From positions 2,976,001-3,040,000 of the forward strand of contig NZ_CP013417.1 of NCBI RefSeq assembly GCF_001524445.2: DNA of 64,000 nucleotides, written 5' to 3'. The translations under genes and the position numbers were made by a program. The notes beneath the pieces were generated by a model. It ran no database searches and was not told the DNA's origin. It worked only from the letters and a program-made list of their open reading frames with translations. Below are positions 6,542-29,619 of this stretch, in pieces (within the stretch, counting starts at the first letter, position 1; the number at the start of each line of letters is the position of its first letter). Source of the DNA: Burkholderia savannae. GTDB taxonomy: Bacteria > Pseudomonadota > Gammaproteobacteria > Burkholderiales > Burkholderiaceae.

Positions 6542-6676
6542 CCGGGCGAAGTCGTCGGTTGTGCGTCGCCGACGAGGCCGGCTTCTTCGCGGCCTCGCCT
6601 GCGGCCGGCGAGCGGGTGGATCATGCAGAGACTTGCGTCGCCGGGCGGAACGAAGCACCCGGCAGACGAGTCTACG

Positions 6677-6760
6677 CGCATCGCGCATCGCGCATCGCGC
6701 ATCGCGCATCGCGCATCGCGCATCGCGCATCGCGCATCGCGCATCGCGCATCGCGCATCG
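6677..6760. repeat. Heptanucleotide tandem repeat, 12 exact copies (VNTR)
   Basis: Unit CGCATCG repeated 12 times without a mismatch, in the spacer just 3' of cobA. Exact short arrays of this type are usually variable in copy number through replication slippage. It lies outside any supported gene, about 26 bases beyond the cobA stop, so copy changes should not alter a protein. Confidence 0.95.
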
Positions 6761-15515: not shown

Positions 15516-15600
15516 GCCCAGGTGGTGAAATTGGTAGACGCAGGGGACTCAAAATCCCCCGCCGCAAGGCGTGCCGGTTCGATTCCGGCCCTGGGCACCA
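15516..15600 (+). tRNA. tRNA-Leu (anticodon CAA)
   Basis: An 85-nt class II tRNA: acceptor GCCCAGG pairs with CCTGGGC, D-loop AATTGGTAGA, anticodon stem GGGGA/TCCCC with loop CTCAAAA giving anticodon CAA (reads UUG). A long variable arm follows, then T-loop GGTTCGATTCC and an encoded CCA. Its 3' end is the integration site of the genomic island that begins here. Confidence 0.95.
15582..15600 (+). other. attL (tRNA-Leu 3' end)
   Basis: The sequence ATTCCGGCCCTGGGCACCA forms the end of the intact tRNA gene and matches attR except for one extra G. The island insertion therefore left the tRNA functional. Confidence 0.85.
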
Positions 15601-15668: not shown

Positions 15669-15772
15669 CATTCCGGCAAAGTGCCGTGTGGTGCGTAGAC
15701 AGCCGGGGGCAAGCGGGGGCAACATTGGGGGCAACCGATCCGAAATTGCCTTACCTGTCAGGAGTTGCCCCC

Positions 15773-16987
15773 GTGCCATTAACCGATACAGCCATCCGGA
15801 ACGCCAAGCCTGCCGACAAGCCCGTGCGCCTGTTCGACGGAGGCGGCCTCTATCTGGAAATCGCCCCGAGCGGGGGCAAGTGGTGGCGCCTCAAATACCG
15901 ATTTGGGGGCAAGGAAAAGCGCTACTCGCTCGGCGTCTACCCGGAAGTTACATTGGCGACCGCACGGAAGAAGCGCGACGAAGCCCGTGAAAAGCTCGCT
16001 GCCGGCATCGATCCGGGTGAAGCGAAGAAGGCGGAAAAAAGAGCCAGCCTGCTCGCAGCCGCCAATTCGTTTGAGGTTGTCGCTCGCGGCTGGATGAACG
16101 AGCGGAAGACGACCGTGGAGCCAGCGCAGCATGCCAAGACGCTCGCCCGCATGGAGAACGATGTATTCCCATGGCTGGGCAAGCGCCCTATCGCTGAAAT
16201 CGACGCCCCGGAGATACTGGTCGTGCTGAAGCGCGTAGACGGGCGTGGAGCCAGATTTACCGCCCATCGCATCCGCAGCGAGATTAGCCGGGTATTCCGC
16301 TACGGCATCAAAGAGGGGCACTGCAAGGCCGATCCGGCCCGCGATCTGGTAGATGCAATCCCGCCCGCGCAGACAACACACTTTGCCTCTATCACTGAGC
16401 CGGAGAAAGTGGGTGAGATGCTTCGCGCGTTCGACGGCTTCACGGGCACGTTCCCGGTTCTCTGCGCGCTCAAGCTAGCCCCCATGCTGTTCGTTAGGCC
16501 GGGCGAGTTGCGGAAAGCAGAATGGGCACAATTCGACCTCGACAAAGGCGAATGGCGCTATTTCGTCAACAAAACGAAAACGGATCACCTTGTTCCGCTG
16601 GCCGCGCAGGCTGTCACGATTTTGCGCGAGCTTCACGCCCTGACTGGCGAAGGCGTCTACGTGTTCCCCGGTGCTCGCGACCGAAATCGGCCGATGAGCG
16701 AGGCCGCTATCAATGCAGCCCTTCGCCGGCTCGGCTACGACACTCGCACCGAGATTACCGGTCACGGCTTCCGGGCAATGGCACGGACGATCCTGCATGA
16801 AGAGCTGGAAGAAAAGCCGGAAGTGATCGAGCACCAACTAGCGCATACGGTCCCTGACAGCCTTGGGCGGGCGTACAACCGAACAAAGTTCATCAAGGCA
16901 CGACGCTCGATGATGCAACAGTGGGCGGACTACCTCGACAAGCTCAAAGCCGGGGCAGAAATCATTCCGATCGCGGCGGCAAGATAG
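15773..16987 (+). CDS. int: Tyrosine integrase (DUF4102 / P4-type)
   Basis: A 404-residue phage-type integrase that would insert and excise the island at tRNA-Leu. The N-terminal DUF4102 arm-binding domain is clear (MPLTDTAIRNAKPADKPVR, then LYLEIAPSGGKWWRLKYRF). The catalytic set is visible: Arg in VRPGELRKAEW (about 241), HGFRAMAR (about 330), the second His in HQLAH (about 353) and the Tyr in GRAYNRTKF (about 366). I chose GTG 15773 because AGGAG at 15760-15764 is well placed; the longer opening from 15686 starts too early for the family. It looks intact. Confidence 0.93.
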   Translation: MPLTDTAIRNAKPADKPVRLFDGGGLYLEIAPSGGKWWRLKYRFGGKEKRYSLGVYPEVTLATARKKRDEAREKLAAGIDPGEAKKAEKRASLLAAANSFEVVARGWMNERKTTVEPAQHAKTLARMENDVFPWLGKRPIAEIDAPEILVVLKRVDGRGARFTAHRIRSEISRVFRYGIKEGHCKADPARDLVDAIPPAQTTHFASITEPEKVGEMLRAFDGFTGTFPVLCALKLAPMLFVRPGELRKAEWAQFDLDKGEWRYFVNKTKTDHLVPLAAQAVTILRELHALTGEGVYVFPGARDRNRPMSEAAINAALRRLGYDTRTEITGHGFRAMARTILHEELEEKPEVIEHQLAHTVPDSLGRAYNRTKFIKARRSMMQQWADYLDKLKAGAEIIPIAAAR

Positions 16988-17350: not shown

Positions 17351-17453
17351 TGGAGAGTTGGAGATAAACGCCTGAATCGGCCGCAAAGCCTTATGGGGTA
17401 AGGCTTCGTGTGTCTCCAAACGATTTGGAGAGCGCTGGAGATACTGGAGATAA
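17351..17453. repeat. Iteron-like repeat cluster A (consensus TGGAGATAA)
   Basis: Six matches or near matches: 17351, 17359, 17413 (opposite strand), 17426, 17436 and 17445. The last two are adjacent direct repeats. The 17413 and 17426 copies form a palindrome, TCTCCAAA-CGA-TTTGGAGA, at 17413-17431. They lie just past the 3' end of the primase gene. A matching cluster is found next to attR. P4 uses repeated sites at ori and crr for its alpha primase/helicase, which makes a replication role the leading idea. Confidence 0.65.
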
Positions 17454-17608
17454 ACCAACCCGGATTGTTACATCCCACGCAAGAGTCGCGGCAACCGCCC
17501 GCCCAGTTCCATCTGGCGCGTATCGCTCAAAGTAACTTTGACGCGCGGGCGAAAAATGCCGCGCAAAGGGATGTCCGCCACCGCCCTCCCGGACGGCAGC
17601 GGTGCAAC

Positions 17609-20488
17609 TCAGATTTCGAGTGAGAAGATGGACGGCAAGACGCGATAGACCATGAGCCGCTTTGTCATGCCGGGGATATGTTCTTGTCGATACGGACGCC
17701 CATCGCTGCGCGGCATCAACACGCCCCGCTTCATCAATGCCTTCTCGACGATCCGATGATCGTAGCCGGCACACACCTCCTTGCGAAACACGGTTGATTC
17801 GATCAGGTATTCCGTCTCGACGCTTTCCGCGTCTTCGGCGCTCATCTTCTCGCCGAACTCGGCGTAATACGCTTGATCCGACTCAATGGCGACGCTGCTC
17901 TTGTCGTGTTTCACGAGTCGTTTCCAGCCCGCACGGTGCGGCGCGTTCGGCCGATGGTCGTCCTGCGCCCGGTTCATCCACACGAAACGGTTGTCGCCGT
18001 GTGCGACGAGGAAGTGCAGCACCTGTCGCACCGCATCCGCTTCGTCTGAATTACCCGTGCCGCCGCGCAATTCGAGCCAGCCTTCGAAGCAGCGACGGGC
18101 GGCCTCGACCGCTTCGCCCTGCGGCCAGCCGGTCAGCCCGTGCGCCGTCGCTAGCTCGCCGGCCACCGCAACGAGGCAGAACCGCTTCGCGACGCGGGCA
18201 ACCTGCGAATGCGAGCCATCCGGCACCCATTGCCCGACCAGCTCGTCGACGCGCACGCGCAGATGCTCGGCCAGCTCGCCGGCCTGCGACGAGGCCCACT
18301 CGATGAACGCGGGGCCGGCCGTGCCGTAGTGCATGCCGGCGTGCCGCTCTAGATGCTCGATCAGCGCGGCCGGCGTCGGGAAGCCGTGCAGTTTCTCCAC
18401 GACGCCCATTTCGCCAACCTCGGCTGGGATCGCGGGCAAGCGCACTTCGATACCGCCTTTCATGGGTTTGTTGCCCTCGGCCATCAGCGCGGACACGCTC
18501 TTTTCGCCGTTCGACAGGAACAGCAGCCGCCACGTGAGAACCGGCTTTGCCGAGCCGCTCCGCGACGCACGGGCCTTGCCCGACTCGTTCGCGAGCATGT
18601 AGATCACATCGCCGACCAGGCGCGGCTCGACCTGCCCGATTTCATCGAGGATCAGCAGCGCGTCGCTATGCTGCGTGGCGACGGCTTCGAGCGCGTTGTC
18701 GGTCGCCTTCCAGCTCCGCACGTAATCCGGCGAGCCGAACACGGACGCGGCGATGACGCCGCCCGTCGACTTGCCTTTCGACGTCGTGCCGAGCAGGTGA
18801 AAGCCGCCCGACTGAAGCCCGGAGAAGTGCAGCAGCGGACCAGCGAAGGCGGTAGCGACGCAGAACAGCAGCCTGCTATTGCCGACGCAGTAGGCCGCGA
18901 CCTCGCGTTGCCAGTCGTCCAGCGTGCCGCGCTCTTTGAACTGGCTCTGGATCGGCGTGTCGGCCTGATAGATCAGCGCCTCTTTGCCGGTGCCGATGAC
19001 GCGATCGGGCAGCACGAACGCGCCGTGATACCAGCCGACGCGCGGCACGCAGCGCACGCGCTCGTCCGGCTGCGCCATCTGCACATAGTTCGCGATCTGC
19101 GTGCGGGCGATCTGCGTGACGCCGAGCTTCACGCCCATATCGAGCAGCATGCGGCGCAGCTCCGTGCCGTCGCCGGCAAAGAGGCCGGCCGGTACCGCCC
19201 ATCGTTTCAGGATGCCGTCGCGGTCCGTGAATTCGAGCAGGTAGCCCCACTCGCTGTTCATCTCGTTTCGCGTCTCAGCGATCACGTCGATACGCGTGCT
19301 GACCCAATGCGGCGGGAGTGGATCGCCCTGATTGTTGAAGCCGTGAAACCACACGCCCTTGTCGTCGACGACGAACCGCGACTTGCCGTCCTGCGCACGG
19401 GCCGTTTTCGGGCGCTTGGCGGGCTTCGCGGCCGCTGGAGCAACCTTGCTCTTGCCGGCATCCGACGAGCCGATCGGCGCGAGCGCAGCGCGCACGGCGG
19501 CGGCCACCGCATCCGGGCCGACGTGCGCAGCCAGGTCGTTGAAGTCGGTGCCGGCCGCCGGGCGGTTCGGACCGAAGTGTGGCACGGCGACGATACCGGC
19601 GACGGCCTCGGCCGCCGCGCGGGCCTTCGTCACGCCCGGATTGCCCTTCGTCGTGTGGTCGTCATCGGCGCACACGACGATGCTGGCGTCCGGATACTGG
19701 CCGCGCAGCGCCGTCGCCACGGCGTGCAGGTTGCCGGCGTCGAACGCGACGGCGGCCGGATAGCCCGTCGCGGCCGCGAGCGTCGCGCACGTGGCGTAAC
19801 CCTCGCCAATCAGCAGCGTGGACGGCGCGGAAGATAGCGGACCGCCGATCAGCGAGAAGCAGCCCGCCTTGCGGCCGTTCGGCAGATAGCGTTTCTGGCC
19901 GTCCGTCAGGACGAACTCCAGCGTCCACAGCTTGCCGTCCGCATCACGCGCCGGGATGACGAGTGCGCTGTCGCACGCGGCCGTGCCGATGCACAAGCCG
20001 CCGCGATAGACGCGCAGCGCGTCGACCGGGATGCGCTTGCGAACGAGATACGGATGATCGGCCGGCGCAGGCTCGGCCGCCGACCAGATCGATTCAGCGA
20101 GCGCCGACGCGGCTTGCTGTTTCTCGGTCAGCGCGGCCAGTTCGGCCGCTTCGCGGGCCGCGCGCTCGGCCTTCTGCCGCTCGCGCTCCGCTGGATCGAC
20201 CGGCTTCGCTCGATGCGCACGCGGATCGAAGCCGCCAAGCTTGGCGAGGTGAAAAAGCGTGTTGATGGTGATCTTGCCGCCCTTGAACGACTTCCACACA
20301 TCGCGTGCGTCCTTGCCGTTGTAGTTCTGCGCGCCTTGGCTCCATTCGTTCCAGAGGGCGAAGCCCTCCTCGCCAAACTCGGCCTTGAGCGCCATCCCCA
20401 CCTGACGCCACGTGTCGCGGTCGTCGGGCGGAACATAGCCGAGCGCGACTCTCGCCCGCTCGAATTCGGACATGGGTGCGTTACTCAT
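17609..20488 (-). CDS. P4 alpha-like primase/helicase (PriCT-Toprim-DUF927)
   Basis: A 959-residue replication protein. Residues about 8-80 resemble a primase C-terminal-2 module (YVPPDDRDTWRQVGMALKAE). A Toprim domain starts near 227 (LIGEGYATCATLAAATG, later IVVCADDD), as in DnaG/alpha primases. The C-terminal half is a DUF927-type helicase with Walker A GTTSKGKST near 566 and Walker B-like LLILDEIGQ. It would prime and unwind the circular excised element. It is last in the leftward chain of small genes, and both candidate iteron clusters are near the ends of the circle it would replicate. Full length, no visible lesion. Confidence 0.85.
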   Translation of the reverse strand: MSNAPMSEFERARVALGYVPPDDRDTWRQVGMALKAEFGEEGFALWNEWSQGAQNYNGKDARDVWKSFKGGKITINTLFHLAKLGGFDPRAHRAKPVDPAERERQKAERAAREAAELAALTEKQQAASALAESIWSAAEPAPADHPYLVRKRIPVDALRVYRGGLCIGTAACDSALVIPARDADGKLWTLEFVLTDGQKRYLPNGRKAGCFSLIGGPLSSAPSTLLIGEGYATCATLAAATGYPAAVAFDAGNLHAVATALRGQYPDASIVVCADDDHTTKGNPGVTKARAAAEAVAGIVAVPHFGPNRPAAGTDFNDLAAHVGPDAVAAAVRAALAPIGSSDAGKSKVAPAAAKPAKRPKTARAQDGKSRFVVDDKGVWFHGFNNQGDPLPPHWVSTRIDVIAETRNEMNSEWGYLLEFTDRDGILKRWAVPAGLFAGDGTELRRMLLDMGVKLGVTQIARTQIANYVQMAQPDERVRCVPRVGWYHGAFVLPDRVIGTGKEALIYQADTPIQSQFKERGTLDDWQREVAAYCVGNSRLLFCVATAFAGPLLHFSGLQSGGFHLLGTTSKGKSTGGVIAASVFGSPDYVRSWKATDNALEAVATQHSDALLILDEIGQVEPRLVGDVIYMLANESGKARASRSGSAKPVLTWRLLFLSNGEKSVSALMAEGNKPMKGGIEVRLPAIPAEVGEMGVVEKLHGFPTPAALIEHLERHAGMHYGTAGPAFIEWASSQAGELAEHLRVRVDELVGQWVPDGSHSQVARVAKRFCLVAVAGELATAHGLTGWPQGEAVEAARRCFEGWLELRGGTGNSDEADAVRQVLHFLVAHGDNRFVWMNRAQDDHRPNAPHRAGWKRLVKHDKSSVAIESDQAYYAEFGEKMSAEDAESVETEYLIESTVFRKEVCAGYDHRIVEKALMKRGVLMPRSDGRPYRQEHIPGMTKRLMVYRVLPSIFSLEI

Positions 20489-20599
20489 AGGTTCCCACTG
20501 GACGCGCGTCGGTCGACTGCCGATTAGTACTCCATATCGGACAAGCAGCTACCCGACGCGCGAAGAATTGAATGATTCGACGATGCCTAGCGGCGGGTC

Positions 20600-20926
20600 T
20601 TAGCCAGCCGCGCGAGGCACCGACAGAACCGCACCGCCGGCCGTGACGTCGTTGCTGTAGACGTAGCGGCCGAGCCGCGACTCGCCAAGGGCGTCGTTGG
20701 CCGCCTCCAGCGCCGCACCGATCGACGGCAGGGACGCGCGAAACAGGCTCAGCACAAGCCAGTAGTCGTCATCGGACATGGCCTTGTGTGCCGCCCATTG
20801 CAGGCTGTCCAGCAGCTCCATCGCGTCACTGATGCGCGTGCCGATGCGGTTGCCGTCCGGCCGGTTCACCTCGGCCACGAAGTGCGACGCGAGCGGTTGC
20901 ACGGCATTCTTGTTCGTCTTTGCCAT
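20600..20926 (-). CDS. Hypothetical island protein (108 aa)
   Basis: A 108-residue protein with no function I recognise. It is mostly helical by eye (AMELLDSLQWAAHKAMSDDDYWLVLSLFR) and begins MAKTNKNAVQPLASHF. It lies in the leftward gene chain between the 115-residue gene (9-base gap) and the primase (111-base gap), so it is probably co-transcribed with replication genes. No signal peptide or metal-binding motif is seen. Confidence 0.65.
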   Translation of the reverse strand: MAKTNKNAVQPLASHFVAEVNRPDGNRIGTRISDAMELLDSLQWAAHKAMSDDDYWLVLSLFRASLPSIGAALEAANDALGESRLGRYVYSNDVTAGGAVLSVPRAAG

Positions 20927-20935
20927 GACTGCCCC

Positions 20936-21283
20936 TCAGTGCGTCGTGCGCGGTTCGCGCGTGACGAGGCCGAGCGCCGCGAACAGGTGCTGTTGCACGC
21001 GCCCCATGAGGCCGGCTGCAAACGCTTGGCGGCTGATCGTCACGCGGTGCGCGTCGACGTCGCCCGCGTCCTGCATGGAGGCCTCCATGCCGCGCGCGAA
21101 CGCGGCGGCTTGATGCGCCGCGTAGTCGTGCAGCCGCACGTCGCCTTTCAGGTCAAGCCATGCGTCGGCGCAGATCGCGCCCAGGTCGACGGCGAATTGC
21201 AGCTCGATCGGTGCGCCGGTATCCAGCGGCGGGGCGTTGTCGAATCCGTCAACAACGGCGGTGCGGATGCGTTGCTCAGACAT
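20936..21283 (-). CDS. Hypothetical island protein (115 aa)
   Basis: A 115-residue soluble-looking protein, not recognised. The sequence is acidic near the N-terminus (VVDGFDNAPPLDTGAPIELQ) and helical later. Its start overlaps the end of the preceding 70-residue gene by 8 bases, and the next gene begins 9 bases after its stop, so it belongs to a tightly packed operon typical of phage satellites. Confidence 0.65.
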   Translation of the reverse strand: MSEQRIRTAVVDGFDNAPPLDTGAPIELQFAVDLGAICADAWLDLKGDVRLHDYAAHQAAAFARGMEASMQDAGDVDAHRVTISRQAFAAGLMGRVQQHLFAALGLVTREPRTTH

Positions 21284-21488
21284 GGTTCACCTCCGGCTTC
21301 GACAGGCGACGCATGCTGGCCGAGTACTGGCTCGCCACGTCGCGGCCCATTTCGACGAGCGAACGCTCGTAAGTGAACTCGTCAAGATGCTGACGAATGG
21401 CGTCGAACAAGGCTTCGAGATTGGCGAATTGATCGGCCGCACACAGGGCGATCATGGAGGATTCGTGCAGCAGGCGCTGATCAGCCAT
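21276..21488 (-). CDS. Hypothetical island protein (70 aa)
   Basis: A 70-residue protein starting MADQRLLHESSMIALCAADQ, helical and without a recognised domain. I prefer ATG 21488 over the longer opening from 21704, because the upstream extension is a different-frame overlap with the Ash-like gene and has no protein character. It overlaps the Ash-like gene by 8 bases and the next gene by 8 bases, consistent with translational coupling. Confidence 0.6.
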   Translation of the reverse strand: MADQRLLHESSMIALCAADQFANLEALFDAIRQHLDEFTYERSLVEMGRDVASQYSASMRRLSKPEVNHV

Positions 21489-21993
21489 GTCGCACCTCCG
21501 CACGGACGAGTGCAGCGATGGCGGCCAGCGCTGCACCGGTTGCATCAAGTGCGGACTGGTACGTGTCAGCCGTTGCTGCGTCGCGCAAGGCGCGTCGGAC
21601 AATCGACTGGATGACTTGGGATTGCCTGGTATGGGCGTGCGTGGACTGGCGCAAGGTGCGGCCTCCTTTGTGTGCAATTGGGAGGCCCGCCGACTCATTT
21701 CCACATGAGAGGTGGCGGGCGCAAGGCTTTTGGGGTGGAAAACCGCTCACAAAGGAAAGCGGCCCAGCCGAAGCTGGCCCATTGACCAAGGCCCGCCATG
21801 GAAGAAGGCGCGCGAAGGCGAACGCACGAAAAAAAACGGCTCGCGCCGTCGTGCGCCTTTGTGAAAGCGGGTTTCCACGCCCGGACGCTGCTGTTTCAGC
21901 GACACGCACAGGATACCGCGCGGCGCAAGACGACGCAAATCGCGACGCCCCTCGCTGCGCATTGCCGGATACAAAGTGACTTTGGGCGAGCAT
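21481..21993 (-). CDS. Ash/Icd-like (host cell-division inhibitor-like) protein
   Basis: A 170-residue ORF with the odd composition of the P4 Ash / Icd-like family. I recognise the flow SGRGNPLSQRRTTARAVFFR, then LLPWRALVNGPASAGPLSF and the CGNESAGLPIAHKG segment. In such families a short division-inhibitor product and internal starts have been described. Here an internal TTG at 21654 has a very good AAAGGAGG seven bases before it and could give a separate 57-residue C-terminal product. ATG 21993 shares a base with the preceding stop (TGATG). Family call is from memory and unsupported by search. Confidence 0.55.
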   Translation of the reverse strand: MLAQSHFVSGNAQRGASRFASSCAARYPVRVAETAASGRGNPLSQRRTTARAVFFRAFAFARLLPWRALVNGPASAGPLSFVSGFPPQKPCARHLSCGNESAGLPIAHKGGRTLRQSTHAHTRQSQVIQSIVRRALRDAATADTYQSALDATGAALAAIAALVRAEVRHG

Positions 21994-22517
21994 CAGGCAG
22001 CCTCCCCCTTGAGCACGGCCGTTGCCAGCTTGAGCTGTTCGATATCCAGTTGCGAGCTGCCCTGCGCTAGTGACTGGCCGAGCGCGACGCCTCGCAGCAT
22101 GGCGCTTACTTCCAAGCGGCGCGTCACGTCTGTGCACTGCGCATCGATGTCGTTGTAAAGCGCACGATAGGCTTTCCGCAGATGTCGATACTGTCGACGG
22201 CGATAGTTCGCCGAATCCTGTTCGGCAGTGGTGATCGCCTGGACGAACTTCTCGCAAGCGGAGCCAAGTTGCTTTGTCGTCAGACGCGGGGCTTCGAGCG
22301 CGAGTGTCGAGGCAAGCATGACGGCAATCGCAACGAGCTTGCCAGCGTCGTCGCCACGATTCCAGAAACGCCCCTCGATGTCATCGAGGATTCCGGCGAG
22401 CTTGCGGAGTCGGGCGTCGCGGCAGCGCACGAATGCAGCGTCGCGGGCCGTGACGGCCGCGCACATGGCGCGACCATAGGGACCGCCGCGATCGATCATG
22501 AGGGCGGGCGCGCTCAT
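21993..22517 (-). CDS. Hypothetical island protein (174 aa)
   Basis: A 174-residue protein, not recognised. After a short N-terminal part (MSAPALMIDRGGPYGRAM) it is mainly helical with charged and aromatic stretches such as YRRRQYRHLRKAYRALYNDI. ATG 22517 is preceded by a GGGGGAAGT ribosome site and overlaps the AlpA-type stop (ATGA). Its own stop overlaps the next start (TGATG). The upstream in-frame opening to 22712 is the shadow of the AlpA gene. Confidence 0.65.
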   Translation of the reverse strand: MSAPALMIDRGGPYGRAMCAAVTARDAAFVRCRDARLRKLAGILDDIEGRFWNRGDDAGKLVAIAVMLASTLALEAPRLTTKQLGSACEKFVQAITTAEQDSANYRRRQYRHLRKAYRALYNDIDAQCTDVTRRLEVSAMLRGVALGQSLAQGSSQLDIEQLKLATAVLKGEAA

Positions 22518-22705
22518 ACTTCCCCCCGCGTGGACTGACGGGATTCGACCCATTGCTGGACGTCTGTGGCGCGCCAGCCGACGCTCCTGGCACCCAACTG
22601 GACGGGCGCTGGAAACGTGCCTTCGCGAATCCACCGATACAGCGTTGTTTTCTTGACGCCGACAGTATCGAGGACGCCGATCAGACGAAGCAGTTTGAAA
22701 GCCAT
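22514..22705 (-). CDS. AlpA-family helix-turn-helix regulator
   Basis: A 63-residue MerR-like winged-helix protein. The pattern RLIGVLDTVGVKKTTLYRWIREGTFPAPVQLGARSVGWRATDVQQWVES is the standard AlpA/excisionase shape, except that it is split here only for display. Such proteins activate integrase or excision, or control satellite operons. It is the first gene of the leftward operon that ends in the primase, with an inverted repeat and promoter-like elements just upstream. Confidence 0.88.
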   Translation of the reverse strand: MAFKLLRLIGVLDTVGVKKTTLYRWIREGTFPAPVQLGARSVGWRATDVQQWVESRQSTRGEV

Positions 22706-23814
22706 TTTCCACCTAGAAAACGGCCTGTTCCGAGAGGGGGTACGGCGAAGGTGCTGTATAAAATCACAGCACTATCGCAAAAGCATAGGCGATGAAAATC
22801 CACGCGTGGCGCGCGTAGGGGCTTGACGCGGCGCGCCACCCCCCTTATTGTTCGCATCGACTACAGTGCTTCACTATCTTCCACAAAGATGTGATAGCTG
22901 TGTTGTTCCCTCCACGGAACAGGCTCCCAAGCCAAAAAATCGCCGGGGGTTGTGTTGGTAGCACGCCCCCGGCACCCTTCTGTCGGCTTGGCGCAGTCTG
23001 CTTGACCCAAGCTTTTCCGCATCCTCCGTCCGAAACGTACAGCCCATAAGGGCCGCAGGCGTTCGTCTGAGTGCCGACAAGGATGTAATTATAACGAAAG
23101 GGGTATGCCCCTAAAAGCACTGTTTCGGTGCTCGTCGCGTAAGCGGCTTGTGACGTGACGACGCTTTGTATCCCTTGTCGTGCGGCTTGGTTCCGTGACG
23201 TTCCGTGTGATGTCAGCGGCTGAGGACGATAGGCAGTAGCGCAATGTCGCGCTGATTGCGAGCCGCAAAGGGGATTGACCCGCATCCTAGGCTCAATCGA
23301 GTGAGAGTTTGCCGAATCGATTGATATTGACGGCAATTCGTCCTATTTCCATTGCCACCATCGCCTCCCGAGCCCATTCCTTGTCGGACTCGCCGTCGAT
23401 TATGTCTAAATTGAGATAGCCGTTGGCCCGTGTTACCGTCGCTGATACTCAGCCTCTATTAGCTAAGCTGTATAAGGCTGGACTAGATCAAGCAGACAGC
23501 GTCAGATCATCTGACTCAGTTCTGCCATGAGCCGCCGTTCACATGCGTCGGCTCTCGGACGTTCAAACGTCGGTTACACACCGTAACCCGCCATCTAATC
23601 GAATAGGCCGAACGCTTGGTCCTCAGCATTTGCGGACGCTGATGTAGTTCGACGATTGCGCCATAGAGTTTGCTCTGTCGCCTTGGCGCTTGAGGAAGTG
23701 CATGAACTGGGTGGCCGTACCGAGCTGCTCCCCGCGGTCGCATCCGGGATCCGCGTCCGGTAGCTTGGATCGGCTGGACGATGAGCCCGATCGAAAGATC
23801 GCGTGTGCCGCGTG
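22706..23814. other. 1.1-kb gene-poor island segment upstream of the AlpA operon
   Basis: No ORF here has protein character I trust. Base composition is clearly more AT-rich than the flanks. Visible structure: GTGCTGT/ACAGCAC inverted repeat at 22751-22772, a hairpin at 22806-22839, and AGGGG/CCCCT and AGCAC/GTGCT hairpins near 23100-23140. P4-type satellites make an untranslated immunity RNA (CI) from this position, so a structured leader is plausible. 23337-23814 holds nothing I can name; it may be decayed insertion-sequence material. Confidence 0.5.
22751..22772. promoter_or_regulatory. Inverted repeat upstream of the AlpA-type gene (candidate operator)
   Basis: GTGCTGT at 22751-22757 and ACAGCAC at 22766-22772 flank an AT-rich centre containing TATAAAAT, about 45 bases before the AlpA start. 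The layout suits a repressor site over a -10 region. Confidence 0.45.
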
Positions 23815-24432
23815 TCAATCGGAACCGCGCGGATGATGGCCGCGTCTAAACGTCAGCCGGCGTTCATTGACGAGCGCACGCCAATCGAGCTTCATCAGCG
23901 CGAAGACGAGGCCAAGCAAGACCAGTTGCGTGACGATGAAGTAGCCTCCGAGATACGTGCCTTCGAGTTCCGATTCCACGTCCAGCCGGGTCGACGCAAA
24001 GCGGCCGAGATGCGCCCAGATTGCATAGGTCGTTGCGCGGCCAATGAAGAACGCCGCCGCGATGATTCTGAGCGGCAACCCGGAAAGCCCGTATGCAATA
24101 AAGAGGTAGTTCGACGGCAGCGGGCTCAACGCGTAGAAGAAGAACGCGCCGGCGGTGAGCGTCCGGTGCTGTCGCAGCCAGCGCGTGGCGACGTCGATAT
24201 TGTCGCGGTCGGAATCCCGGATCCAGCGGGAGCGGACGAGCGATCTCGCGAAGGTCGCCAGGATGACACGGCCGGTCGTCGCCGCGCCGGCCGCCACAAC
24301 GGCAAAGATGAACGGATTGCCGTCGGGCAGGTTGAACCCGACCCACGACATCGCCATCCACGTGGGCGGGGCGAACGCCGGCATGAGATTCAGCAGAAGA
24401 ATCAGCACGAAGAGTACAGCCAGCGTCTGCAC
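23815..24432 (-). CDS. VTT-domain (DedA/SNARE-associated-like) membrane protein
   Basis: A 205-residue integral membrane protein. The N-terminal hydrophobic segment (VLFVLILLLNLMPAFAPPTW) and the later FYALSPLPSNYLFIAYGLSGLPLRIIAAAFFIGR block resemble the VTT/YqaA-type family, in which polar and proline residues sit in re-entrant loops. The family is tied to membrane lipid handling or transport; the substrate here is unknown. It starts at GTG 24432 with GGAG upstream. It is divergent from the metal ATPase, and an FNR-like dyad lies 62 bases before its start. Confidence 0.72.
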   Translation of the reverse strand: MQTLAVLFVLILLLNLMPAFAPPTWMAMSWVGFNLPDGNPFIFAVVAAGAATTGRVILATFARSLVRSRWIRDSDRDNIDVATRWLRQHRTLTAGAFFFYALSPLPSNYLFIAYGLSGLPLRIIAAAFFIGRATTYAIWAHLGRFASTRLDVESELEGTYLGGYFIVTQLVLLGLVFALMKLDWRALVNERRLTFRRGHHPRGSD

Positions 24433-24493
24433 GATATCGACTCCAAGCCATCCGGTGTCACGGCTCGATTTTGCTGAGGAAAGGGGCCGATGG

Positions 24494-24509
24494 CTTGACT
24501 CACGTCAAG
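24494..24509. promoter_or_regulatory. FNR-like dyad between VTT and ATPase genes
   Basis: CTTGACTCACGTCAAG is a perfect 6-bp-arm palindrome with a 4-base centre, the TTGAC-N4-GTCAA variant of an FNR/ANR/DNR box (TTGAT-N4-ATCAA). It lies 62 bases upstream of the VTT start. Confidence 0.6.
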
Positions 24510-24548
24510 CAACGCGGCGTGCCGGTCGTTCACGGGAGGCACGCCGTC

Positions 24549-24562
24549 CTGACCCATGTCAA
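24549..24562. promoter_or_regulatory. Second FNR-like dyad, upstream of the ATPase
   Basis: CTGACCCATGTCAA keeps the TGAC-N4-GTCA core, centred about 105 bases before the ATPase start. It is one base short of the full palindrome. Confidence 0.5.
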
Positions 24563-24660
24563 TGCTCAAAGCGCGGCGCTCCCTAGACTGATGCCACGCC
24601 GTCCGCCACCGAAACCGGATACCGCGAACACCACCATGCACGGCTATCGGAGCAATGGTC

Positions 24661-26952
24661 ATGTCCCGAGTCCCCTGGTCGATCGATCTCGTGATGCTGA
24701 TTCTGGCGGCCGCCACGCTCGCCGGCGGCGGCGTATGCGTGGCGTTCGGCCAGCCGTCGCTCGCGCGATTCGCCTGGCTGCTGGGGACGCTGCCGGTCCT
24801 GCTCGCGTTGACGGTCTCGCTGGTCAAGGCCGTGATGAGGCGGCAGGCCGGCATCGACGTGCTCGCGTGGCTCGCGATCGCGCTGGCGGTCGTGCTCGAC
24901 GAGACGCTTGCGGCGGCGGTGATTGCGTTGATGCTGGCGAGCGGGCGGACGCTGGAGCGGTATGCGCAGAACCGCGCGCAACGCGAGATGAGCGCCCTGC
25001 TCGGCCGCGCCCCCCGGCAGGCGACCCGTTTCGAGAACGGGGAATGGCGCTCGGTTGCGCCGGACACCCTTGTCCCCGGCGACAGGCTGCTGGTGCGGAG
25101 CGGCGAGTTCGTGCCCGTCGACGGCACATTGACCGGCGACGCGGAACTGGACGAGTCCATGCTGACGGGCGAATCGTCCACCCTGCGACGCCGTTCCGGG
25201 GAAAACGCATGCAGCGGCGTGGTCAACGCCGGCGTCCCGTTCGAAATGGTTGCCCGCACGACGGCGAGTGACAGCACGTTTGCCGGCATCGTCCGTATGG
25301 TCGAGCGTGCGCAACGCGAGCGCAGCCCGTCCGTGCGTCTCGCGGATCGCTACGCCGCATTCTTCGTGCTCGCATCGCTACTCGTCGCGGGAATCGCATG
25401 GCTGTTGACCGGTGACGTCGCACGTGCGCTTGCCGTGCTTGTCGTGGCCTCGCCGTGTCCATTGATCCTCGCCGTGCCGGTCGCCATCGTATCCGGCATG
25501 TCGCGTTGTTCGAAACGCGGCATTCTGGTCAAAGGCGGGGGTGCGCTGGAGCGTCTTGCACAAGCGACGACTCTGTTCTTCGACAAGACCGGGACGCTGA
25601 CGGGAGGACGGGCACGCATCGTTGCGATCGAGTGCGGCGCTGACGTCGCAGCGGACGATGTGTTGCGGTTGGCCGCGTCATTGGCCCAAGCGTCGGGCCA
25701 CGTCATCTCGGACGCGCTGACGGTCGCGGCGCGCGAACGTTGCATCGACCTGTCGTTGCCGTCGGCTGTCATCGAAACGGCCGGCGAAGGCGTGACGGGC
25801 CAGGTCGACAACAGGACCGTTGCGATCGGCAAGTTCGAATACGTGTCGGCATGCGCGACGAATACGCCGTGGAGCGGCGCATTCCTGGCACGCGTCGCCA
25901 GCGAGGGCGGGGCTGCCGTATTCGTCGGCGTGGATGGCGTCATGATCGGCGCGATTCAAATGGCCGACCAGGTGCGGCTGGAAACGCCGCGAGCATTGCG
26001 GTTGCTCAAACGTGAAGGCGTCGAGCGTCTCGTCATGCTGACCGGTGATCGGCACGACATTGCCGAGGCCGTCGGCGAACTGCTGGGCGTCACCGATGTT
26101 CGCGCGGAGCAGACGCCGGCGGACAAGCTTGCCGCCATCCAGGCTGCCCGGCAGGAGGGCGTGACGATCATGGTCGGTGACGGTGTGAACGACGCACCGG
26201 CGCTGGCCGCGGCCGACGTCGGCATCGCGATGGGTGCGCGGGGAGCGGCCGCGTCATCCGAAGCCGCCGACGTGGTCTTGCTGGTCGATCGGCTGGATCG
26301 ACTCGTGGATGCGATGCGTATCGCACGTCGATCGCGCCGAATCGCACTCGAGAGCGTGGTGGCCGGCATGTCGCTGTCGGTCGTCGCGATGACGATTGCG
26401 GCGGCCGGATTCCTGCAGCCGATTGCCGGCGCGGTGATTCAGGAAGTCATCGACGTCGCGGTCATCGTCAATGCGTTGCGCGTGTTGCTGGTTCGCCCGA
26501 GGCCGACGAACGCCCGGCTCGACGATGTCGACGTCGAGCAGCTCAGGCGCGAGCACACGGCATTGTCACCGTTGCTGGACCAGATCCGGGATCTCGCGGA
26601 TCGTCTGCCGGGACTATCCGGGGCCGCCATCGCCAGCGAGCTGGTCCAGATGATCGACTCGCTCGACGAACGGCTGCTGCCGCACGAACGCGCCGACGAT
26701 CGGGACGTCTACGCGCGCCTTGCCCCGCTTCTCGGCGGGGAGGACCCGCTGGCTGCGATGAGCGGCGCGCACCGGGAGATCTTCAAGATGGTCCGATCGC
26801 TCAGACAGATGGTCGCGGACCTGCCGCACGACGGCTCGAACACCATGCAGGTGCAGGCGATACAGCGCTTGTTGTACGGGCTGGAAGCGATCGTGCGCCT
26901 GCATTGCGCCCAGGAGGAGGAGTTGTTCCACGCCGTGGGTGCGGATGCGTGA
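24661..26952 (+). CDS. P1B-5-type metal-transporting ATPase with C-terminal hemerythrin domain
   Basis: A 763-residue P-type ATPase. TM metal motif SPCPL is near 262, the phosphorylated Asp in DKTGT near 307, and GDGVNDAPAL near 505. A late membrane motif QEVID near 593 replaces the usual HEG pattern. There is no N-terminal heavy-metal domain. Residues about 620-763 form a hemerythrin-like bundle with ligands in REH (629), PHE (674), AHR (702) and HCAQEEE (748). The PC-P plus QE--D motifs and a hemerythrin tail are the signature of P1B-5 ATPases, linked to Fe/Ni export and possibly O2 or redox sensing. ATG 24661 fits the GGAG; ATG 24655 is too close to it. Confidence 0.85.
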   Translation: MSRVPWSIDLVMLILAAATLAGGGVCVAFGQPSLARFAWLLGTLPVLLALTVSLVKAVMRRQAGIDVLAWLAIALAVVLDETLAAAVIALMLASGRTLERYAQNRAQREMSALLGRAPRQATRFENGEWRSVAPDTLVPGDRLLVRSGEFVPVDGTLTGDAELDESMLTGESSTLRRRSGENACSGVVNAGVPFEMVARTTASDSTFAGIVRMVERAQRERSPSVRLADRYAAFFVLASLLVAGIAWLLTGDVARALAVLVVASPCPLILAVPVAIVSGMSRCSKRGILVKGGGALERLAQATTLFFDKTGTLTGGRARIVAIECGADVAADDVLRLAASLAQASGHVISDALTVAARERCIDLSLPSAVIETAGEGVTGQVDNRTVAIGKFEYVSACATNTPWSGAFLARVASEGGAAVFVGVDGVMIGAIQMADQVRLETPRALRLLKREGVERLVMLTGDRHDIAEAVGELLGVTDVRAEQTPADKLAAIQAARQEGVTIMVGDGVNDAPALAAADVGIAMGARGAAASSEAADVVLLVDRLDRLVDAMRIARRSRRIALESVVAGMSLSVVAMTIAAAGFLQPIAGAVIQEVIDVAVIVNALRVLLVRPRPTNARLDDVDVEQLRREHTALSPLLDQIRDLADRLPGLSGAAIASELVQMIDSLDERLLPHERADDRDVYARLAPLLGGEDPLAAMSGAHREIFKMVRSLRQMVADLPHDGSNTMQVQAIQRLLYGLEAIVRLHCAQEEELFHAVGADA

Positions 26953-26964
26953 CGACGAAGCGCG

Positions 26965-27915
26965 TCACGCACGCGACGCATGTACGAGCAGGACCGGAGT
27001 TTTCGTGATGCGCGCCACGCGTCCGGCCACGGTGCCGACGAGCCAGCCCGTCACGCCTCGCCGCCCGTGAGTGCCCATGACGACCACGTCGGCATTCCAT
27101 TCGATCGCGTCGCGCACGATCAGATGGGAAACGTCCGCGCCGGTTCGATCTGCGTGAATAAGTTGCGACTGCGCATGTCTGGCCATGCCTTCGATTATGG
27201 CCGTGGCACTCTGGAGCACATGATTTCCTTCGCCGATCAATGCTTCTTCCAGTGCCCCGCCAAGGGCGAAGTCGCCCAGCATTGGGGGGCGATCAACCAC
27301 GTATATCGCACGTAATTCGGTGTCGACCCGCGAGAATGTCAACCCTGTCCGCAATGCGTCGAGTGCAATCGCGCTTCCGTCAACGGCGAACAGCATTCGC
27401 CGTGGCAGATGCTCGGCAACCGACGCGAAACCTTCCGGAACGATGAGCAGCGGGCATCCGATGAGTTTGCCGAGCGGGCCGGATACCGTCCCTTCGACCC
27501 ATCCGAGCAAGCCATGATGCTGACGTGCGCCGACGATCAGGAGTTCGGCCTGCCAGGTTTGCGCGCTGTCGGCCAGTGCATTCACGACATCCCCGCCACG
27601 TGTGGCGAGGTCGATGACTTCCGTGTCGATGACGAGATCGTCGCGATCCATTGCAGCTTTGGCGCGCAACACCGCATCAGACGCATCCCTGAGCAACTCG
27701 ACGCGCGCGGATTCGAGGAACGCCATGGTTTTCGATCCGAGCGGGACGAGCGTTCTCGGATTTTCCGCAACGCTAATGATGTGCACCGCTGCATTCGATG
27801 GGAGGAACGCTTTGGCATAGGCGAGTGCATGAGCGGATGCGCTCGAACCGTTGACCGCGATCAGCACTCGCAGCGGAGTGGGGACGGCCTGGACGGGTGA
27901 AGTGGTGGTGCTCAT
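26965..27915 (-). CDS. Tandem-domain universal stress protein
   Basis: A 316-residue protein with two UspA domains. Domain 1 (about 15-165) starts RVLIAVNGSSASAHAL and has VGARQHHGLLGWVEGTVSG; domain 2 starts RMLFAVDGSAIALDAL and ends MGTHGRRGVTGWLVGTVAGR, with the G-xx-G-x9-G-S/T type ATP-binding loop. Such proteins help cells survive growth arrest and low oxygen. ATG 27915 has GGGAGA upstream; the longer opening to 27951 reads through the ribosome site. It is convergent with the ATPase, with only 12 bases between stops, and carries its own FNR-like dyad. Confidence 0.88.
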   Translation of the reverse strand: MSTTTSPVQAVPTPLRVLIAVNGSSASAHALAYAKAFLPSNAAVHIISVAENPRTLVPLGSKTMAFLESARVELLRDASDAVLRAKAAMDRDDLVIDTEVIDLATRGGDVVNALADSAQTWQAELLIVGARQHHGLLGWVEGTVSGPLGKLIGCPLLIVPEGFASVAEHLPRRMLFAVDGSAIALDALRTGLTFSRVDTELRAIYVVDRPPMLGDFALGGALEEALIGEGNHVLQSATAIIEGMARHAQSQLIHADRTGADVSHLIVRDAIEWNADVVVMGTHGRRGVTGWLVGTVAGRVARITKTPVLLVHASRA

Positions 27916-27983
27916 GAATGTCTCCCAATGGCAACAGACGGTCTTGTACACGGCAATTTTTCGCGCGGACAGCTTTTGCCTGG

Positions 27984-27997
27984 TTGACCTTCGTCAA
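27984..27997. promoter_or_regulatory. FNR-like dyad upstream of the universal stress protein
   Basis: TTGACCTTCGTCAA is the same TTGAC-N4-GTCAA palindrome as at 24495-24508, centred about 75 bases before the Usp start. The shared site links the cargo genes into one putative regulon. Confidence 0.6.
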
Positions 27998-28113
27998 GCA
28001 CGTTCGCCATAGCGGTGCCGACACGGTTCACGTTCGACTGAATTAAGAGCACACGTTCTAAATGCGTTTGGTGACCTGCTATCGTACGAATTCGTCTGGT
28101 GATGAATTCCGGG

Positions 28114-28385
28114 TTAAATGCCGATTGCAAGCGAATCGGTCACGTTCGCGCAAGAATGGTCATAGAGACGTTCGACAATCTTTGGCATGGGCGTGCTGGT
28201 TGGAAGTGACTGGACGTCGACATACCGGAACCACTGACACAAATTGATTTCTTTGCCAGGCCGCGGATCGGATTGAGTGGGAACGTCGGCGACGAAGACC
28301 TGATGAAGCCTCGACGCCCCAACGAACTGAAAGGCGTAGGCCAGCTTCAACCTTATCAAGCCGGTTTCTTCCTCGAGTTCATGAC
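28114..28385 (-). pseudogene. C-terminal fragment of a Nudix hydrolase
   Basis: The frame contains ELEEETGLIRLKLAYAFQFV, which is the second half of a Nudix box (EExxE-E-TG) plus the strand that follows, and continues with plausible Nudix C-terminal sequence to the stop at 28114. The front half of the box (GG...E) and the N-terminal domain are missing: upstream of about 28385 the frame turns into unrelated sequence within the resolvase repeat region. It is therefore a truncated remnant, cut at or near a recombination site. Confidence 0.6.
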
Positions 28386-28488
28386 TCGACTGCCCCTTGA
28401 AGGTCGGTTGTTGTCGTTCGAATAGTGGCACCTTCCTGTCTGTCCCAGCGACCGACCAGAAGGCAATCGGCGCTCCAATCAAATGCGC

Positions 28489-28563
28489 CTGTCCAAAACC
28501 GATCCCTTTCGGACAACCCCTTTCCGCCCTGTCCAAAAATAAGGGTTGAAGTATTTTGGACAG
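28489..28563. repeat. CTGTCCAAAA repeats upstream of the serine recombinase (candidate res site)
   Basis: CTGTCCAAAA occurs directly at 28489-28498 and 28529-28538 and inverted at 28554-28563, the last two forming a dyad with 15 bases between. They sit 45-110 bases ahead of the recombinase start, where Tn3-type resolvases have their res sub-sites and autoregulate. Confidence 0.65.
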
Positions 28564-28608
28564 GCGTTTATATTCGGACATCTATTTCGTACAGATTGAG
28601 TGCCCGAT

Positions 28609-29184
28609 ATGTCCCGAACCTTCGCTTATGCCCGCGTCAGCACGTCCGACCAGACCACCGCGAACCAGTTACGCGAGATCGAGGCAGCCGGCTTCTCGGT
28701 CGACAAGCGCCGCGTCGTGTCGGAAAGCATCTCAGGGAGCGTGAGCGCCGATCAGCGGCCGGGCTTCGCAAAGTTACTTGACCGGATGGAAGAAGGCGAT
28801 GTGCTGATCGTGACGAAGCTCGATCGGCTCGGCCGCAATGGAATGGACGTGCGGGCCACGGTCGAGGGTTTGGCCGAGCGCGGTATCCGGGTTCATTGTC
28901 TCGCCTTGGGCGGCGTCGATCTGACGAGTGCGGCCGGCCGGATGACGATGCAGGTGTTGAACGCGGTGGCCGAGTTCGAACGCGATCTGCTGATCGAACG
29001 AACGCATGCCGGCATCGCTCGCGCTAAGGCAGAAGGCAAGACGATGGGACGGCCGTCCGCCCTGTCGGACCAACAGCGGGCGGAGGTGCTGCGCGAGCTG
29101 GATGCGGGGGCGAGCGTGGCCGCGCTCGCCCGACAATTCGGCACGAGCCGCCAGACAATCATGCGGGTACGCGACGCGGCGTAA
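28609..29184 (+). CDS. Serine recombinase (Tn3 resolvase / Pin-type invertase family)
   Basis: A 191-residue small serine recombinase. The catalytic Ser is in YARVSTSDQ (about residue 11), with [13 protein letters not shown] and the [19 protein letters not shown] helix of the catalytic and dimerisation domain. The C-terminal helix-turn-helix ([19 protein letters not shown]) completes a full-length protein. It would resolve or invert DNA between its own repeats. An in-frame GTG at 28600 is an alternative start. No transposase is present, so it may be a domesticated or orphan resolvase left by a Tn3-like element. Confidence 0.9.
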
Positions 29185-29210
29185 CGCCTCTCCTACCAAA
29201 TTCACTTTTC

Positions 29211-29236
29211 ACGGGCCGCAAGGCCCGTTTCTGTTT
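29211..29236 (+). terminator. Terminator of the serine recombinase
   Basis: Stem ACGGGCC/GGCCCGT (29211-29217 with 29222-29228), loop GCAA, then TTCTGTTT. Confidence 0.7.
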
Positions 29237-29338
29237 CTGCGCGCGGAGGAGTGGCGGCACGGGAGATTCTTTGCGCGCAGCGTCCCAGACGGCGGGGTAA
29301 TTCCCGAGCTGGTCGACGTGGCTCGATGCATTCGACGC

Positions 29339-29454
29339 TTATCTCCAAACTTATCTCCAGAAAAATAGGTGTGTTGGAGATACACTTGGAGATGACCAAA
29401 GCCCCGCCAGATAAGGCAGACAGGCCGAGTTGAGCCGTTATCTCCAATTCTCCA
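29339..29454. repeat. Iteron-like repeat cluster B (consensus TGGAGATAA)
   Basis: Six matches or near matches in both orientations: 29339, 29351, 29438 and 29448 on the minus strand, 29375 and 29387 on the plus strand. Several keep the full TTATCTCCA/TGGAGATAA core. In the excised circle this cluster would be roughly 2 kb from cluster A, on the other side of attP and int. Confidence 0.65.
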
Positions 29455-29601
29455 GAAAATTTCGCGTCTGGCGAGGCAAGAATGGACCTCGATCTCTTCG
29501 TATAGTGGCTGCGCCGGCAGCGCGGGGGCAACTCCGGGGGCAACTCCACAACGCCCTCCAAGCAATCCCCTTACAATACGGGCCTCACAGCGAATAATTT
29601 C

Positions 29602-29619
29602 ATTCCGGCCCTGGCACCA
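29602..29619 (+). other. attR (imperfect copy of the tRNA-Leu end)
   Basis: ATTCCGGCCCTGGCACCA matches the tRNA 3' end but has GG where the tRNA has GGG. It marks the right boundary of the island. Confidence 0.8.

Follow-up and report, generated by a model that had tools for sequence, protein, structure and literature searches.

Introduction

The alpha protein of phage P4 binds the type 1 repeats of this phage. In the P4 record a further repeat region, crr, is annotated as the cis required region for replication. A second kind of origin belongs to the Staphylococcus aureus pathogenicity islands (SaPIs) and other phage-inducible chromosomal islands (PICIs). According to the available portions of the two reports, the iterons of SaPIbov1 lie directly downstream of its rep gene (PMC7581432), while in Gram-negative PICIs they follow pri-rep, and the pri-rep-ori module is functional in Escherichia coli (PMC6092414). 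In this study, we analysed an integrated island of Burkholderia savannae which carries a primase-helicase gene of the DUF927 family and two arrays of the short repeat TGGAGA, one near each end of the element. The island lies in a 64-kb stretch of DNA (G000:C1:2976001-3040000; hereafter the window), taken from a genome of 7.43 Mb in three contigs; window positions equal genome coordinates minus 2,976,000.

A preliminary description of the window had proposed that the two repeat clusters are the ori and crr of the primase. This proposal withstood the comparative tests reported below, which support a wider form of it: the arrays appear to belong to a co-evolving two-array replicon of DUF927 primases, in which several repeat words are used. 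A literature search by titles and abstract openings revealed nothing about a division of the iteron origin in DUF927 islands, or about the present Burkholderia elements (most subscription papers, including older work on the P4 and SaPI origins, were beyond its reach); it did list replication of other islands, e.g. SGI1 (PMC7433901).

Two iteron clusters near the island ends

The island (approximately 14.0 kb) is bounded by 13-bp repeats, ATTCCGGCCCTGG. The left copy (15582-15594) lies within the 3' end of the tRNA-Leu (CAA) gene at 15516..15600 (+ strand), which is the integration target, and the right copy (29602..29614, +) marks the other island end. Cluster A (17351..17453, +) is situated between the integrase gene (int) and the 3' end of the primase gene. 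It contains six TGGAGA iterons (17351+, 17359+, 17413-, 17426+, 17436+ and 17445+), i.e. ++-+++ on the + strand of the window, or ---+-- in the direction of the primase. Cluster B (29342..29454, +), between the serine recombinase gene and the right attachment (att) site, also contains six (29342-, 29354-, 29375+, 29387+, 29441- and 29449-), arranged --++--, or ++--++ in the primase direction. We propose that A is an ori-like and B a crr-like half-origin. The places of both six-member clusters agree with those first described (with B starting at 29342), but the longer core given for them, TGGAGATAA, is exact at only 5 of the 12 sites; the core common to all 12 is TGGAGA.

The expected enrichment was confirmed. 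With at most one mismatch allowed, TGGAGATAA has 9 matches in the window, 8 of them inside the two clusters, compared with a mean of 2.49 (sd 1.47) over 100 shuffles, none of which reached 9. Eight of its 15 occurrences in the whole genome lie in two islands (five in the island of the window and three in a second island of the same arrangement) and seven elsewhere; the reversed word occurs 3 times. The cluster A region had no match among plasmid records, and a search of phage records returned four partial relatives (29-36% identity).

Cluster B lies about 150 bp from att, and cluster A about 1.75 kb from it, beyond int. The clusters are 11.9 kb apart in the integrated island, whereas in the excised circle they would be separated by about 1.9 kb across attP-int, close to the 2 kb predicted earlier. 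A stem, AAGCCTTA-TGGGG-TAAGGCTT, is present at 17386-17406, between the iteron groups of cluster A.

The primase-helicase

The gene beside cluster A (17609..20488, - strand) encodes a protein of 959 aa with PriCT_2, Toprim_3 and DUF927 domains followed by a C-terminal domain. Its designation as alpha-like holds for the Toprim primase part, which is 34% identical to P4 alpha over 203 aligned positions, but not for the helicase: this is DUF927, the family of SaPIbov1 Rep and of Cch of the staphylococcal cassette chromosome (SCC) (match to PDB 8tch, E 1.1e-18). A profile of the C-terminal alignment produced nothing significant against PDB sequences, and a comparison of folds was therefore needed. 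In this comparison the C-terminal domain (about residues 831-959) models like a winged helix and resembles the C-terminus of SaPIbov1 Rep (8tch).

Distribution in the genus

Among 65 genomes of the genus, 23 close primases (full-length, at least 89% identity) were identified, three in the genome of the window (G000) and 20 in others. Cluster A is present at all 23, in the order ---+-- in the primase direction, with one site lost in each of two loci (L070 and L080); it lies 157-162 bp past the primase stop codon in 22 cases and 577 bp past it in one, element I1 of the window's genome. Cluster B (++--++) was found in 20 of the 23 islands (with five of its six sites exact in I1), at a distance of 7.0-23.8 kb upstream from where the primase gene begins; in the three islands where it was not seen, the contig ends 3.4-14.0 kb upstream of the primase.

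A search for the two patterns made blind to the genes gave the same association. All 21 A patterns, from 17 genomes, lie directly after close DUF927 primase genes. The B pattern occurs 26 times in 22 genomes, and the control patterns read backwards gave no hit in the 65 genomes, either for A or for B. Eighteen B patterns belong to islands with a full-length primase on the same contig. Two more (G013, G029) were found on short contigs that also carry the recombinase; in both genomes the contig with the primase breaks off early. Another two (G002, G044) are near partial primase matches. The remaining four (element I4 of the window's genome, G030, G031 and G062) have no match to the window's primase in the surrounding DNA, the flanks searched at G030:C2:4098709, G031:C4:239959 and G062:C7:156632 being 27-40 kb.

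B clusters of this last kind would be expected if the clusters were inherited remnants without present function. This reading is opposed by the conservation of cluster A, in which, over 21 islands (all but I1 and I3), 34 of 36 iteron columns do not vary, compared with 37 of 64 spacer columns, and by the exchange of the same base at all sites of I3, described below; we give it almost no weight. In cluster B, 12 of 77 spacer columns are invariant over 15 distinct rows; since the rows were picked for six exact iterons, its 36 of 36 invariant iteron columns are so by construction, and only the spacer variation is informative.

Related elements of the same genome

The genome carries three DUF927 primases, and the two besides that of the window's island (I2) are 89% and 93% identical to it. 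Of the other two elements, I1 sits at a tRNA-Ser gene and has TGGAGA clusters in the same two layouts, with one B copy altered. Both layouts recur in I3, where every one of the 12 sites reads TGGAGG, a change of one base throughout. Because I3 is nested among TGGAGA elements in the primase tree, its word looks derived from TGGAGA. Compared with columns that are near-invariant in the other 22 primases, 17 residues are found in I3 only, and 14 of these fall in positions 816-959, the C-terminal 144. Three changes (H911Y, K916E and M919K) are located in a predicted helix, 911-920, and K903E in helix 898-905. The primase of L065 has much of the I3 C-terminal sequence around helix 911-920, yet its iterons are TGGAGA, which leaves fewer candidate residues.

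A further element, I4 (L012:2300-10000; G000:C1 at about 3972.3-3980 kb, near yidC), contains a TGGAGA cluster B together with genes for a SIR2-like protein, a HerA-like ATPase, a serine recombinase, an IS-like transposase and an integrase. No match to a DUF927 primase and no cluster A were found in it, and we suggest that it is either a remnant or an element relying on the primase of another island.

Which protein follows the word

The word is TGGAGA in 21 of the 22 other close islands, and the question of which protein reads it can be addressed by asking which protein stays with it. The preliminary description had offered the clusters as possible arm sites for the integrase (Int) or an excisionase (Xis), an option considered here for Int and for the AlpA-like protein. 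The short distance between cluster B and att, and the presence of an AlpA-like gene in the island, would agree with this; cluster A, in contrast, lies far from att on the other side of int. Moreover, Int is 96-99% identical to that of the window in five of the other close islands, 42-46% in 15, 31% in I1 and 29% in I3. In 16 of the 21 other TGGAGA islands Int is thus just 31-46% identical and the word is unchanged; since integrases are swapped freely while the word stays, the arm-site reading was rejected.

Two integrase types also have repeats of their own near both island ends. In the window, GGGGGCAAC occurs in five exact copies, every one near one of the two ends: 15715+, 15727+ and 15764- beside int (with 15705+, which has one mismatch, spanning 15705..15772) and two at 29524..29544 (+). 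From this placement they are probably the Int arm sites, and their word is distinct from the iterons. The second integrase type is accompanied by GATACCAACAAAAATACCAACA, or its last 21 bases, in six other islands. Arm-type sites would follow the type of integrase, and the TGGAGA clusters do not. A search with the window's AlpA gave matches of 85-94% identity in eight of the other close islands, 37-39% in five and none in nine, and AlpA is 94% identical between I2 and I3 despite their different words. Sites for Int or AlpA are consequently a very improbable explanation of the clusters.

Another conserved island protein, or a host factor, might read the words. The serine recombinase adjoins cluster B and is matched in 18 of the 22 other close islands, but it has no match in I1 (nor in the contig-cut L066, L070 and L071) and is 94% identical in I3, where the word differs. 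The small open reading frame orf20600 is matched beside the primase in 21 of the 23 close islands, without a match in I1 and L080. The recombinase, AlpA and orf20600 were each discarded as readers of the word, because they are absent from some islands or nearly identical where the word differs. Two words in one genome would not be accounted for by a host factor alone. A further candidate is orf20936, which was matched in every one of the 23 close islands and, among the 10 more distant loci of the split type defined below, in 9 (32 of 33 loci of that clade). At E 1e-6 no match was found in 22 loci of the single type; orf20936 could be a partner that bridges the two arrays, or it could be too diverged in those loci for detection. 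The constant companions of the word across the close islands are the primase and orf20936. We consider a reader other than the primase improbable.

Split and single arrays in the wider family

The comparison was extended to 398 genomes of the family, the genus included, of which 46 have primase matches at E 1e-80 or better. Thirty-four places show less than 80% identity, and 32 of them were analysed (G092 and G116 were left out). Ten of these (51-76% identity) fall into one clade with the primase of the window. When the resulting 33 clade loci (1.31 Mb) were scanned with 11 words, every cluster of at least four copies was at position A or position B; two clusters were obtained with the same words reversed. 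Both arrays were found at 28 loci, and the word is the same in A and B in 27 of them: TGGAGA in 19, GGGAAC in four, GGGACA in two, and TGGAGG and GGTGAC in one each. One array only was seen in L114 (B) and in L116, L066, L070 and L071 (A).

The stem letters AAAGCCTT or AAGGCTTT were detected within 400 bp after the primase (a stretch shifted in I1, L124 and L132) at 21 of the 23 close loci and at 12 of the 32 distant ones, compared with 3 of 1073 and 23 of 1458 random stretches; these letters persist where the iteron word changes. Many B clusters also hold letters similar to the stem of cluster A.

The remaining 22 loci (34-44% identity) are of a single type, with one array after the primase in 21 (10-13 exact copies in 14 loci, 4-9 in seven); in L141 no array was found after the primase. 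The arrays of L147, L148, L150 and L100 read exactly +++-++--+---, a six-iteron half followed by its inverted copy. The flanks scanned for a second array (9.7-13.1 kb upstream and 0.9-5.7 kb downstream) showed none, except for one of four copies in L153. In a primase tree of 41 rows (10 of the 23 close loci and 31 of the 32 others, L153 being left out and L114, L116 and L118 counted as split), the split group forms one clade with a support of 100/100.

The two types also differ in the position of int. It was found in 31 of the 33 clade loci, the nearest copy being always downstream of the primase and on the opposite strand. Of the 22 single-type loci, 14 gave an int, which was upstream in every case. 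The order in the circle of the split clade is primase, A, int, attP, B. The split circle thus has its iterons ordered and facing each other as in the single array (five of six signs agree in the second half), with int-attP lying between. A shared att or arm repeat was recognisable in 13 of the 20 close islands, I3 not being one of them, and in L120, L122, L126 and L128 of seven others tried. In these islands the distance between A and B is about 1.7-3.2 kb across att, compared with 8.2-17.8 kb in the integrated state. The longest integrated distance of all is 26.8 kb (L069).

A proposed two-array replicon

The arrays themselves, their geometry and conservation, their association with the primase and the co-variation of their word are observed. 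On this comparative basis we consider it likely (probability about 0.86) that A and B are two cis-acting iteron arrays of one replicon, read by the primase-helicase of the island; binding by the primase, a need for both arrays and replication of the circle are parts which we infer. In the proposed mechanism the winged-helix-like C-terminal domain would bind TGGAGA at six sites in each array, excision would bring A and B to within about 1.9 kb of each other across attP-int, where the initiator would then load and the circle would replicate. A would act as ori and B as a second array resembling P4 crr.

Several observations weigh against this reading. I3 also has the integrase least like that of the window, and for this reason it cannot by itself separate the primase from Int, a distinction provided by the 16 islands with divergent integrases and the same word. 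Cluster A and the primase gene are adjacent and share their ancestry. Orf20936 accompanies nearly all split-type loci and may be a helper. L118 (G324) is mismatched, with GGTGAC in A and TGGAGA in B; it is possibly a recombinant caught between two words. A full-length primase is lacking near six of the 26 B patterns of the genus. Furthermore, B of the distant loci was first sought mainly by the word of A, and the search was repeated with the 11 words. As a separate observation, cluster A of L118 also holds one GTATCTCCAGCG, resembling the TGGAGA family.

The anatomy of the clade and its phylogeny raise a more specific idea, that the origin is built around the recombination site. As int-attP lies between two six-iteron halves in this clade, integration would cut the origin in two and leave the halves 8-27 kb from each other, and excision would bring them back to a distance of about 2-3 kb. 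We hold this only tentatively, at somewhat less than even odds. If it is true, replication becomes conditional on excision through a simple physical tie, and the host is shielded from firing of the integrated copy. Alternatively, A might be the whole origin and B a control site for the same protein, acting in copy number, handcuffing or the coupling of replication to integration. One downstream array seems enough in the sister loci, and B adjoins att in the islands with readable ends, as this alternative would have it. However, 14 of 21 scored sister arrays hold 10-13 iterons while A has only six, and P4 crr, which B resembles, is annotated as required for replication; we find B as a mere control site unlikely, though well short of negligible.

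More generally, these elements form a family of small integrating islands whose origins can be read from DNA, with at least five words that go with related initiators. Recognition of iterons by initiators, incompatibility between co-resident islands and the role of P4 crr thereby become directly testable.

Other features of the island

The tyrosine integrase gene (15686..16987, +) encodes Arm-DNA-bind_3, Phage_int_M and Phage_integrase domains. Upstream of the primase are orf20600 (20600..20926, -; 108 aa) and orf20936 (20936..21283, -; 115 aa), neither of which has a match in Pfam, NCBIfam or PHROGs; P4 ORF106 was considered as a relative of the two and dismissed, as no meaningful similarity was found. 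The gene for the AlpA-like regulator or excisionase is at 22514..22705 (-), and that for the serine recombinase at 28600..29184 (+). The cargo, at 24655-27951, consists of genes for a P-type ATPase with a C-terminal hemerythrin domain and a universal stress protein. Elsewhere in the window, a k-mer scan revealed at about 6674-6745 a seven-base unit (CGCGCAT in one frame) repeated head-to-tail in at least eight copies.

Comparison with known systems

The preliminary description held that the island has exactly the split arrangement of P4. The grouping of the repeats and the order crr-attP-int do correspond. The type 1 repeats of P4 ori (9310-, 9320-, 9331-, 9353+, 9396- and 9406-) show the same six-repeat order, three-one inverted-two (---+--), over 104 bp, compared with 100 bp in cluster A. 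The crr units (e.g. 4314+, 4323+, 4366-, 4384- and 4398+) read ++--+, where cluster B reads ++--++. The second array is next to attP, on the side away from int, in both elements: the P4 record runs int, arms, attP, arms, crr, alpha, and the island int, arms, att, arms, B. An alignment of the words by similarity (GGTGAACA, TGGGAACA, TGGAGATA) flips the signs of orientation; because the match in order depends on the direction assigned to the word, we do not use it as statistical proof.

The correspondence is nevertheless inexact. The crr of P4 is doubled, as two units of five repeats, whereas cluster B is single, and P4 ori precedes alpha, whereas cluster A follows the primase gene. The iteron word is GGTGAACA in P4 and TGGAGA at 12 of 12 sites here, a difference already noted in the first description. 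Alpha contains a zinc ribbon, D5_N, DUF5906 and Pox_D5 in place of PriCT_2 and DUF927, Toprim alone being common to both. Because both the word and the helicase family differ, the island resembles the ori/crr arrangement of P4 without being a member of the P4 alpha replicons; by analogy, its arrays may work like ori and crr outside that group.

The Cch protein of SCC shares the helicase family, but the protein of the window additionally has PriCT_2 and Toprim domains. SCC elements have other recombinases and another host. Because the helicase is DUF927, cluster A is modelled more closely by the rep-ori module found in SaPIs and other phage-inducible islands, with which the island shares the DUF927 initiator helicase (8tch), a modelled match of the C-terminal fold and iterons directly downstream of the initiator gene. 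In the SaPI and PICI origins, as far as the available portions of their descriptions go, two iteron sets surround an AT-rich region at one locus; in the Burkholderia island the sites are divided between the two island ends.

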